The translations under genes and the position numbers were made by a program. A stretch of 64,000 nt of DNA from Variovorax paradoxus. Lineage in GTDB: Bacteria > Pseudomonadota > Gammaproteobacteria > Burkholderiales > Burkholderiaceae_C. Below the pieces are notes generated by a model. That model did no database searches, was not told the origin of the DNA, and saw nothing but the letters and a program-made list of their open reading frames with translations. Below are positions 41,919-46,189 of the stretch, piece after piece. Position 1 is the first letter of the stretch, and every line of letters starts with the position of its first letter. The stretch covers positions 3,870,501 to 3,934,500 of the forward strand of contig NZ_CP123990.1 of the NCBI RefSeq assembly GCF_029919115.1. The letters run 5' to 3'.

Positions 41919-43037
41919 TCAGTGCGCGAGTGCGGCCTCGGCGTCTTCGGGCGTGGGGCCCACGTACACCGATTGCGGCCGTATCAGCCGCCCCTTCTTC
42001 ACCTGCTCGCGCGCATGCGCGATCCATCCACTCACGCGCCCGGCTGCGAACACGCAAGTGAAGCTCTCGCGGCCAAAACCCAGGGCTTCGAGCAGCAGCG
42101 CGGTATAGAACTCCACATTGGTTTCCAGTGCGCGATCGGGTTTCTTCTCGCGCAGGATGGCCAGCGCGGCTTTCTCGGCGGCCTCTGCCAGTTCGAAGCG
42201 CGCGGCATTGACGCTGCCCTCGGCGCCCAGCCGGCGCAGCGCCCCCTTGAGCGCATCGGCGCGCGGATCGCGCACGCGGTAGATGCGGTGGCCAAAGCCC
42301 ATCAACCGCTGGCCACCCGCCACAGCCTCTTCGAGCCATGCGCGCGCGTTGGCCGCGGTTCCGATGGCATCGAGCGCATCGAGCACCGGCCCGGGCGCAC
42401 CGCCATGCAACGGACCCTTGAGCGCGCTGATCCCGGCGAGCACCGCCGACGCAAGCCCTGCACCGGTCGAGGCCACCACGCGTGCGGCAAAGGTCGACGC
42501 ATTCAAGCCGTGGTCGCAAACGGTGACCAGGTAGGTGTCGAGGGCGGCAACCTGCGCCGCGGTGGGTGCGCGGCCGTGCAGCATGCGAAGCATGTCGCCA
42601 GCCTGCGGCAGTGTTTCGTCGGGCGCGAGCGCCTGCACGCCCAGCCGCCAGCGCATCACCGCTGCGGTGTAGACCGCAGGTGCCGCCACCAGCCGAAGCG
42701 CGGTGTCCAGGTCGTCGCCGTCGGGCAGTCGCGCCATCAGCGCCCGAACCGCTTCGATGGGCGGCAGCTTGCGCAGCATGGCGTCGTCGTTGGCTTGCAG
42801 CCGCTCGAAGGCTTCGCGCCGCGCACGGCCCAGGCCGCTGCGCAAAGCGGCCGCGTCGGGGAGCTTGTCGAAGAAGCCCTCGAACAGCAGCGCGACGGCG
42901 TCTTCATAGCGCCAGTGCTGCGCAATCTCGCCGAGCTCATGGCCGCGGATCACCAGCCGGCCGGCGGCGCCATCCACTTCGGACAACACGGTGCGCGCGG
43001 CCACCACGCCTTCGAGGCCGCCATCTTCGTCGTTCAT
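41919..43037 (-). CDS. Citrate-synthase-family protein
   Basis: A 372-residue protein with AAGGAG 8 bases before ATG 43037. Catalytic histidines are in place: H211 (GPLHGGAPG) and H250 (GFGHRIYRV). The third catalytic position, normally Asp in NVDFY, is Glu309 here (NVEFYTA). RPQSVYVGP near the C-terminus supplies the CoA/citrate arginine region. It could be a citrate or 2-methylcitrate synthase or a relative with another acyl-CoA or keto acid. The divergent neighbour is an HTH-fused relative of the same fold, 74 bases away. Confidence 0.85.
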   Translation of the reverse strand: MNDEDGGLEGVVAARTVLSEVDGAAGRLVIRGHELGEIAQHWRYEDAVALLFEGFFDKLPDAAALRSGLGRARREAFERLQANDDAMLRKLPPIEAVRALMARLPDGDDLDTALRLVAAPAVYTAAVMRWRLGVQALAPDETLPQAGDMLRMLHGRAPTAAQVAALDTYLVTVCDHGLNASTFAARVVASTGAGLASAVLAGISALKGPLHGGAPGPVLDALDAIGTAANARAWLEEAVAGGQRLMGFGHRIYRVRDPRADALKGALRRLGAEGSVNAARFELAEAAEKAALAILREKKPDRALETNVEFYTALLLEALGFGRESFTCVFAAGRVSGWIAHAREQVKKGRLIRPQSVYVGPTPEDAEAALAH

Positions 43038-43080: not shown

Positions 43081-43110
43081 ATTGACGTCAATCTTGATTT
43101 ATTCCGTCAA
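43081..43110. promoter_or_regulatory. Operator-like repeats between the two citrate-synthase-family genes
   Basis: ATTGACGTCAAT (43081-43092) is a perfect 12-bp palindrome, and a further half-site CGTCAA lies at 43105-43110. Together they give three TTGACG/CGTCAA half-sites in the 74-base divergent gap. The HTH-fused protein encoded right beside them is the obvious candidate ligand. Confidence 0.6.
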
Positions 43111-43111
43111 C

Positions 43112-44278
43112 ATGACCAAGCCTCCGCTCTGGCTTTCCGCCGCACAGGCGCTCGAACTGATGCAGGTGCGGCCGCAAACGCTCTACGCCAGCGTGAGCCG
43201 CGGCCGCATTCGCGCCAAGCCCGACGCGGCAGACCCGCGCCGCAGCCTTTACCACCGCGACGACGTGCAGCGCACCGCGGCTCGCACGCGCGGGCGGCGC
43301 AGTAGCGAGGCGGTGGCGAGCGAAGCCATTCAATGGGGCGAACCGGTGTTGACCTCCGCCGTGTCCACGGTGGCTGACGGGCGGCTCTGGTATCGCGGGC
43401 AGGACGCCTGCCTGCTGGCGGAACACGCAACGCTCGAAGAGGTGGCGGGGCTCCTGTGGGAGAGCGCACCGCCGCGCTTTGCGTGCACAGCTTCGACCCG
43501 AGTGCACAGCACAAAGCAGGCAACCCCCCTGCAGGCCGGCTTGCTCGCACTCGCAGGACGCGCCGCAATCGATCCGCCCTCGCGAGGCCGTTCGCGCGCA
43601 GTGCTGCAGGCCGAAGCGGCAGAGGTGATCGGCACGCTTGCCGATGCATTGCTCGGCCCGTCTCCTTCCGCCGTCCTGCCCTTGCATGCACGCCTCGCCG
43701 CAGCATGGCGCCGTCCGAAGGCGGCCGATGCATTGCGCCGGGCACTGGTGCTCATGGCCGACCACGAGCTCAATGCATCGACCTTCGCCGCGCGGGTGAC
43801 GGCGTCGACCGGCGCTTCGATGGCCGCGTGCCTGCTTTCAGGGCTGTCGACGCTGACAGGCCCTTTGCATGGCGGTGCCGCGGCGGCGGTTCAAGCGCTC
43901 GTGCGCAGCGCCGCCGCATCGGGCGGCGATGCCGCGGTGCGCGAATGGCTTGCGCACGATCGCGCGCTGGCGGCTTTCGGCCATCCGCTGTATCCGCAAG
44001 GCGATGCACGCTCCGCGGCGCTGCTCGCAGGCATCGAACTACCGCCCGTGTTCGCGGATTTACGAGCCACGGGCGAAAGACTGCTGGGCGAAGCAGTGAA
44101 CATCGACTTCGCACTGGCCGCGCTGGCCGCCGTGCACAAGCTGCCGCCCGACGCACCATTGACGCTCTTCGCGCTCGCGCGCGCGGTCGGCTGGACGGCC
44201 CACGTGCTCGAGCAGCAGGCCACGGGGCAACTGATACGGCCGCGTGCGCGCTACACGGGGCCTGCGCTCACGCGGTGA
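43112..44278 (+). CDS. Helix-turn-helix/citrate synthase fusion, putative metabolite-sensing regulator
   Basis: A 388-residue protein from ATG 43112; a TTG start 10 codons upstream would run through the operator. Residues 7-56 (WLSAAQALELMQVRPQTLYA to the YHRDDV segment) form an excisionase/MerR-like DNA-binding domain. A linker (ARTRGRRSS) leads to a citrate-synthase fold with all three catalytic positions kept: H253 (GPLHGGA), H291 (AFGHPLY) and D332 (NIDF). It may be an enzyme that binds DNA or a regulator that senses acyl-CoA or oxaloacetate-like ligands. It has no visible Shine-Dalgarno sequence. It is divergent from a citrate-synthase-family gene. Confidence 0.85.
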   Translation: MTKPPLWLSAAQALELMQVRPQTLYASVSRGRIRAKPDAADPRRSLYHRDDVQRTAARTRGRRSSEAVASEAIQWGEPVLTSAVSTVADGRLWYRGQDACLLAEHATLEEVAGLLWESAPPRFACTASTRVHSTKQATPLQAGLLALAGRAAIDPPSRGRSRAVLQAEAAEVIGTLADALLGPSPSAVLPLHARLAAAWRRPKAADALRRALVLMADHELNASTFAARVTASTGASMAACLLSGLSTLTGPLHGGAAAAVQALVRSAAASGGDAAVREWLAHDRALAAFGHPLYPQGDARSAALLAGIELPPVFADLRATGERLLGEAVNIDFALAALAAVHKLPPDAPLTLFALARAVGWTAHVLEQQATGQLIRPRARYTGPALTR

Positions 44279-44998: not shown

Positions 44999-46189
44999 TT
45001 ATTTGCGGCAAGAAACCGGCAAGGCCTTTTGCGAGAGGTCGTCACCGGCCACGCAGTTCCAGGCAATGCCGTCTTCGGTAGCCGAAGGCTCCATGCGCAG
45101 CGTGCCCTTTGCCTTGGGGAGCTCCACGTCGACCACCATGGTGTCGGTGTCGAGCGTGAGGGCCGAACCATTGGGCAAGGCCGCTGGCGCGCCGGCGGCT
45201 TCAAGGGATTCGGGAATCTCCTGCTTCTCCTTGTAGTAGTTGCCCAGTGCTTCGCGCACCGGTGCCGCCTCGGACCAGGCCTGCGAGACGGCCGCGCGCG
45301 ACTCGTACTCCTTGTAGGCCGGCAGTGCCACCGCGGCCAGCACGCCAATGATGGCCACCACCACCAGCAAGCCCAGCGCGCCGCCGCCGGCGCGGCCGGT
45401 GTAGGGCACGAAGATCGCGAGCACATAGGCCAGCGGATTGCGGCTCGGCAGCTTGGCGGCCGGATCGATGGTGCGCGCCACCCGTTTGGTGAGCCACGGA
45501 TAACCGGCGATCAGTTCATGGAACGAAGCCCAGAAGCCGCTGTTGCCAGCCGATTGGTTGGCATAGCGCTGCAGGTCGACATTGCGCCATTGCTGCGCGC
45601 CGGCAGCCAGGGCCACGAGCGCCCGAGGCGCGGAGTCGGCCTGCTCGCAGCAGGCGGCGCCGTGCAGGTCGCAGGTGTATTCCTGTGCCCGTGAATAGGC
45701 TGCGCCGAGCAGCGGAATCCAGAGCACCGGCGCGCGCCAGATGTGGCCCGTGAGGTGGCCGCGCCGGATGTGGCCGAGCTCGTGGCCGATGTAGAAGTTG
45801 ATGCCGTCGGGCTGGGCTTCCATGGCGTCGACCACGTCGGACAGCAGCACGACGAAGTTGCGGCCGAAGAAGCGCGTGGCAAAGGCATTGAAGATGCCGT
45901 CGCCGTGCAGCAGGTAGGCCTCGGGCGGCTCTTCGATGCCGAGGTAGCCGCAGCAGGCCTGGAAGCGTGCATGCAGTTCTGGCAGCTGGGTGGGCGAAAG
46001 CTTGACGGCGGTGCCCTTGATCCAGGCAATGACGGCCGACTGTGCGAACACATAGCCGATGAAACCGAGCAGCACGTAGATGAGCGCAATGCCGAAGGTG
46101 CCGAGCACCAGTGCCGCCCAGACGAGCAGGCCCAGGCCGAGCGTGATGTTGCCGAGCCAGCGCTCGCGCGGATAAACCCATGGATCCAT
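44999..46189 (-). CDS. M48-family metallopeptidase fused to a type IV pilin-like domain
   Basis: A 396-residue protein with GAGGAGG 9 bases before ATG 46189. Two N-terminal helices (about 12-55) precede an M48 catalytic domain with HELGH (136-140) and the third ligand region RAQEYTCD (E170). From residue 267 the sequence switches to a pilin helix (ALGLLVVVAIIGVLAAVALP, then AYKEYESRA), followed by a globular part with pilin-like WNC and LPVSCRK cysteines (C379, C394). The prepilin cleavage site and Glu5 of true pilins are absent, so the helix is probably a permanent membrane anchor. Both halves are in one frame with no sign of a frameshift. Confidence 0.88.
   Translation of the reverse strand: MDPWVYPRERWLGNITLGLGLLVWAALVLGTFGIALIYVLLGFIGYVFAQSAVIAWIKGTAVKLSPTQLPELHARFQACCGYLGIEEPPEAYLLHGDGIFNAFATRFFGRNFVVLLSDVVDAMEAQPDGINFYIGHELGHIRRGHLTGHIWRAPVLWIPLLGAAYSRAQEYTCDLHGAACCEQADSAPRALVALAAGAQQWRNVDLQRYANQSAGNSGFWASFHELIAGYPWLTKRVARTIDPAAKLPSRNPLAYVLAIFVPYTGRAGGGALGLLVVVAIIGVLAAVALPAYKEYESRAAVSQAWSEAAPVREALGNYYKEKQEIPESLEAAGAPAALPNGSALTLDTDTMVVDVELPKAKGTLRMEPSATEDGIAWNCVAGDDLSQKALPVSCRK

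Follow-up and report, generated by a model that had tools for sequence, protein, structure and literature searches.

Why should a zinc protease carry a type IV pilin-like domain at its C-terminus? The question is raised by a gene on the minus strand of a 64,000-nucleotide stretch of the Variovorax paradoxus genome (hereafter the window; contig NZ_CP123990.1, positions 3,870,501 to 3,934,500), which encodes an M48 metallopeptidase fused in frame to a pilin-like module. The gene comprises the following features, given by position in the window:

44999..46189, minus strand: whole gene, 396 amino acids (aa) plus stop in one frame, with an ATG start and a GAGGAGG-type ribosome site directly upstream
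46037..46150, minus strand: N-terminal membrane segment, residues 14-51, one or two helices according to family-mean insertion score and structure model
45440..46012, minus strand: M48 catalytic domain, residues 60-250, presumably cytosolic
45770..45784, minus strand: HELGH zinc motif, residues 136-140
45668..45682, minus strand: ExxxD motif, residues 170-174, with the third zinc ligand by homology
45380..45397, minus strand: glycine hinge GRAGGG, residues 265-270, replacing the prepilin cleavage motif
45002..45385, minus strand: pilin-like module, residues 269-396, modeled as helix 271-307, helix 309-322 and four strands
45008..45055, minus strand: C-terminal Cys pair, residues 379 and 394, a presumed disulfide by comparison with pilins

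A conserved fusion of a zinc protease and a pilin-like module

A first-pass annotation of the locus had proposed a fusion with a complete zinc-protease core and a pilin fold after residue 267. Both Pfam matches exceed their cut-offs, with 63.9 bits for Peptidase_M48 (cut-off 20.3) and 30.3 bits for Pilin; no further Pfam family was found in the fusion protein at E ≤ 1, so that N_methyl and M56 are without match. The protease core is indeed complete, with HExxH at residues 136-140 and ExxxD including E170, and the structure model shows a type IV pilin fold from residue 269. A protein search yielded 2130 proteins with E ≤ 0.001 among 7997 scored, of which the best 120 were examined; 108 proteins chosen by their HExxH motif were added from 110 fetched loci (L126 and L128 were without a frame), giving a combined set of 228 rows, 207 of them distinct. 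HExxH is found in 120/120 of the best homologs (HELGH in 119, HEIGH in 1), and C379, C394, R250, P262, G265, A286, P290, R312 and P391 are identical throughout these 120. In the alignment of the 207 distinct homologs, E170 and D174 each occur in 205, C379 and C394 each in 204 and R312 in 191; rows without two cysteines near the C-terminus are L004, with an in-frame stop in the module, L096 and L127 (short). This conservation of the fusion rules out a chance or frame artefact in which the halves would belong to separate frames, and the fusion is thus real.

Individual copies deviate from this pattern. In one 97% identical copy (L004, genome G004), an in-frame stop interrupts the pilin module directly after the helix, by which the pilin head would be lost; it is a variant or a decayed gene. 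Five Comamonas copies (L054, L071, L072, L073 and L083) contain a glycine-rich insert right behind the helix proline and keep the Cys pair.

The pilin module lacks the prepilin cleavage site and Glu5

Type IV pilins are marked by a class III signal that includes Phe1 and Glu5. This signal is absent from the fusion protein; the annotation had already noted the missing cleavage site and Glu5, and the homologs agree. No distinct homolog (0/207) has Phe at the Phe1 place (residue 269) or Glu at the Glu5 place (273). Both places are mostly occupied by glycine (163/207 and 164/207 distinct homologs, respectively), as in G269 and G273 of the V. paradoxus protein. Glu was not found anywhere within residues 271-276 in any row of the same alignment, and an FTLIE-like motif after residue 240 is absent in all 228 rows. 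The hinge itself is well conserved among the best 120 homologs: G265 in 120/120, R266 in 113/120, G268 in 104/120 and G269 in 107/120.

The absence of the prepilin site and of Glu5 supports the proposal that the pilin part stays in place as an anchored module. Lacking a cleavage motif, a free N-terminus and Glu5, the module is not an ordinary filament subunit; docking or sensing seems a more probable role for it than that of a pilus building block.

Predicted membrane topology

Family-mean insertion scores were -2.5 for residues 26-44, -1.6 for 14-32, 1.8 for 33-51 and -2.3 for 271-289, with all remaining listed segments above +8. The structure model has a single helix at the N-terminus, spanning residues 9-60. 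According to the positive-inside rule, membrane proteins are oriented with their positively charged flanks toward the cytosol. Stretches 52-66 and 229-268 both carry net positive charge, which would leave the protease on the cytosolic side and expose the pilin head and its Cys pair to the periplasm. The cysteines C379 and C394 probably form a disulfide, as judged from pilins.

In the presumed cytosolic domain C173, C180 and C181 are invariant among 40 aligned homologs and C79 and C80 are conserved in at least 90%; a redox or metal role of these five residues is possible.

Does the module recognize pilins?

We tentatively favor a membrane protease steered by a pilin-recognizing module, a reading to which we give slightly less than even chances. 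An inner-membrane M48 gluzincin with its catalytic domain facing the cytosol would be followed by one more membrane helix and a periplasmic pilin-like domain; charge and hydropathy of the sequence fit this arrangement. The module helix would pack against pilins residing in the membrane, or against the platform of the pilus or of type II secretion, and thereby bring the protease to them, and the protease could then cut surplus or misplaced pilins, or regulators nearby.

Pilin recognition by the module is suggested by how its helix varies. We compared 3913 pairs from 111 rows at comparable catalytic identity (97 of the 113 rows used were distinct). Pairwise identity was 0.627 for residues 282-299, 0.610 for the catalytic region and 0.591 for the N-terminal membrane segment, with 0.396 for residues 271-281 and 0.344 for the head. 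The distal helix is therefore constrained, yet not beyond the other membrane segment. Two genomes of one family, Komagataeibacter nataicola (G359) and G503, carry the fusion, and in neither did we find an N_methyl protein or a prepilin peptidase over the cut-off (best E 0.04); PilB appeared only as weak partial matches (best E 4.7e-12). Among the 113 rows, these two have the most diverged helices (0.208 and 0.237) at ordinary catalytic identity (0.603 and 0.612); measured against the protease, their pilin part falls short by about 4 standard deviations, taken over row means that are not mutually independent. Next in divergence are two Desulfoluna helices (0.297 and 0.362), whose hosts do have pilins; the helix end of one copy (AVAIPQFSSYQVK) resembles a pilin of its host (AVAIPNFRTYQLK) by eye. 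As support for a pilin link, helix change in these two lineages is suggestive only.

Several observations weigh against this reading. Conservation alone is no proof of pilin contact, as the N-terminal membrane segment comes close to the distal helix in this respect. Helix decay in hosts without detectable pilins amounts to one lineage with two genomes, and the third lowest residual, ahead of the two Desulfoluna copies, belongs to L069, a 491-aa frame from a metagenome-assembled genome (MAG). The hosts without detectable pilins also retain the entire module and its Cys pair, which means that the module can function there without pilins or is in the process of being lost. Membership in a pilus operon was rejected: among 80 named loci (62 non-Variovorax), no neighbor family occurred in more than 10/62, when neighbors were clustered by blastp as unnamed families and open reading frames (ORFs) overlapping the gene itself were set aside. 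Co-occurrence with pilus genes was dropped as evidence: prepilin peptidase was found in 28/30 carriers and PilB/GspE-like matches in 29/30, which is uninformative since nearly all family members have pilus genes. Finally, the gene occurs in 22/299 family genomes (match at E ≤ 1e-60) vs prepilin peptidase in 97/100, which argues against a core part of the pilus. Docking on pili or recognition of pilins, as the annotation suggested, is conceivable, with indirect support from helix conservation and from helix decay in two hosts without detectable pilins; a dedicated pilus part is disfavored.

Alternative explanations

The strongest competitor is a receptor protease of the BlaR1 kind, in which the periplasmic pilin-like domain would sense another signal (envelope stress, redox state or a ligand) and switch the cytosolic protease onto a regulator. 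We regard this as somewhat unlikely. The predicted layout of the fusion is shared with BlaR1, and the retention of the module in hosts without detectable pilins stands beside it; the outside domain of BlaR1 is a beta-lactam sensor, that of the fusion a pilin fold.

Less likely again is that a borrowed pilin end serves as a mere membrane anchor for an HtpX-like housekeeping protease without a specific partner. Other relatives of the protease are also membrane-bound, and one closely related family is unfused: the best 120 of 769 relatives of a 263-aa protein are 249-313 aa long and contain the M48 domain only (hosts include Burkholderia, Paraburkholderia and Trinickia), so that the module is dispensable for this type of protease. 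The L004 copy with its stop inside the module and the occurrence of the same module at the end of several unrelated domain types point the same way. However, an N-terminal membrane segment is already present, the head keeps its pilin fold and, in nearly all distinct homologs, its Cys pair, and residues 282-299 are conserved like the catalytic region.

That the M48 domain cuts its own glycine hinge, at the position where prepilin peptidase would act, and so frees a pilin-like cap or starter of a filament, is very improbable. The hinge is indeed conserved and lies just ahead of residue 1 in the pilin register on the presumed cytosolic face, and an autocleavage loop is reported for BlaR1 (PMC9834060). 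However, glycines precede the helix also in the protease-free modules P0122, P0149 and P0152, which shows that such a hinge is not confined to proteases; in addition, Glu5 is missing and the module is retained where pilins are not detectable.

Distribution and gene neighborhood

The first-pass annotation had called for a search for such fusions across Burkholderiales; they were found there and well outside this order. A contig scan confirmed 500 relatives, and the 80 kept of these include Variovorax, Comamonas, Diaphorobacter, Duganella, Colwellia, Thiospirillum, Desulfoluna and K. nataicola, and the closest named record among the matches listed is Variovorax sp. DXTD-1 (L023) with 97% identity. 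At E ≤ 1e-60, matches were found in 5/369 class genomes (own genome included; one match ends at position 315) and in 2/200 genomes of the Komagataeibacter family. A single-protein search of close relatives gave a full-length match in 4/41, again including the own genome, and no match was found at E 1e-40 among 72,556 plasmid records. The patchy spread suggests loss and transfer.

In genome G161 the gene lies in two pieces about 9.5 kb apart (C1 244461-245141 and 254623-255138) and the break falls near residue 172, pointing to a large insertion. A 49% identical fusion (L101) comes from a contig assigned to a Klebsiella pneumoniae MAG, probably by misbinning.

Gene order is common to the Variovorax loci, partly together with L044 and L039, and likewise to five Comamonas loci. 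One mixed neighbor cluster of 53 loci consists mostly of antisense ORFs overlapping the gene (89/105). In the window, ORFs 41919-43037 (minus strand) and 43082-44278 (plus strand) are divergent neighbors which, by eye, we take to be citrate synthase-like, the second with an extra N-terminal part. The host genome, a single contig of 5.81 Mb, has M48 matches in eight further places (of ten matches in total, two belong to this gene) and the Pilin family in one other place.

Related pilin modules in other proteins

Similar modules terminate proteins of other kinds. With the pilin portion of a GYF_2-RDD-pilin protein as query, we found 30 proteins of 253-394 aa, with the architectures GYF_2 + RDD + Pilin (23), RDD + Pilin (2), TM2 (1), DUF2628 + Pilin (1), zinc ribbon + RDD + Pilin (1) and Pilin alone (2). 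A genome of the same genus encodes a DUF2628-Pilin protein, in which a zinc ribbon scores below its cut-off. The helix pattern was matched in 28/32 of the proteins of this kind that were examined; the displayed helices are without FTLIE and most modules have the Cys pair. GYF_2-RDD, RDD, TM2 and DUF2628 proteins ending in such a module without FTLIE are seen in L009, L014 and P0123-P0152.

In a tree of 66 modules, 37/40 M48-linked modules cluster together (100/99) and are separate from the 11 canonical pilins, which are few and were chosen by an FTLIE-type motif; three M48-linked modules (L084, L090 and L101) sit among modules of other fusions. A single origin of the M48 label is compatible with the starred branches. 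Recent capture of the host's own pilA is not favored, given the separate grouping of these 37 modules.

No functional description of the GYF_2-RDD-, RDD-, TM2- or DUF2628-pilin proteins was found in the literature searched. They could, together with the M48 fusion and the zinc ribbon-RDD protein, represent a class of 'inverted modular pilins', in which diverse cytosolic or membrane domains end in an unprocessable pilin module that would read the pilin pool or dock on type IV pilus or secretion platforms, coupling a cytosolic enzyme to the pilin state across the inner membrane; we consider such a class doubtful but conceivable.

Comparison with known systems

Databases already name such proteins, e.g. 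'Zn-dependent protease with chaperone function/Tfp pilus assembly protein PilE'. We found no description of the fusion in titles or abstract openings of the literature searched, from whose coverage subscription journals are largely missing. If the module recognizes pilins, bacteria would have a means of relaying the state of the pilin pool to a cytosolic protease and, in the sister architectures, to other domains, and pilin quality control and pilus feedback would be open to direct genetic tests in a harmless soil bacterium.

HtpX and other M48 membrane proteases share with the fusion protein an M48 domain over the Pfam cut-off, HExxH and ExxxD, and an N-terminal membrane segment. HtpX models match weakly, with 27.3 bits at best against an NCBIfam equivalog cut-off of 341 bits for the best model, and the fusion protein differs by its second membrane helix and pilin-like domain. 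Type IVa pilins (PilA/PilE) resemble the module in fold, helix sequence and C-terminal Cys pair, whereas the module here is located at the C-terminus of an enzyme and has no class III signal motif, Phe1 or Glu5. The GYF_2-RDD-pilin, RDD-pilin, TM2- and DUF2628-pilin proteins have the same kind of C-terminal module, mostly with the Cys pair, but no protease.

In modular pilins such as Streptococcus sanguinis PilB, PMC8179133 describes an N-terminal IPR012902 pilin motif that comes first, with the filament displaying the extra domain outside. They too join a pilin module to a functional domain; in the fusion protein the pilin module comes last and its motif is lost, and no IPR012902 motif leads the protein. 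As far as that text goes, modular pilins were surveyed by their N-terminal motif, which leaves the reversed order outside the survey. Pilin modules known from it are N-terminal carriers of filament-displayed domains, whereas the present module stands at the other end, lacks the processing motif in 207/207 distinct relatives and is still strongly conserved in part of its helix.

BlaR1 is, according to PMC9834060, a gluzincin with HExxH and ExxxD, an active site toward the cytosol, a C-terminal domain outside and an autocleavage loop. BlaR1/MecR1 and the fusion protein, with its predicted topology, would share the order of cytosolic gluzincin, membrane part and outside C-terminal domain. They differ in family, as the fusion protein has no Pfam M56 match, and in a beta-lactam sensor there as opposed to a pilin fold here. 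BlaR1 appears to offer the closest layout, a likeness of arrangement and not of membership.
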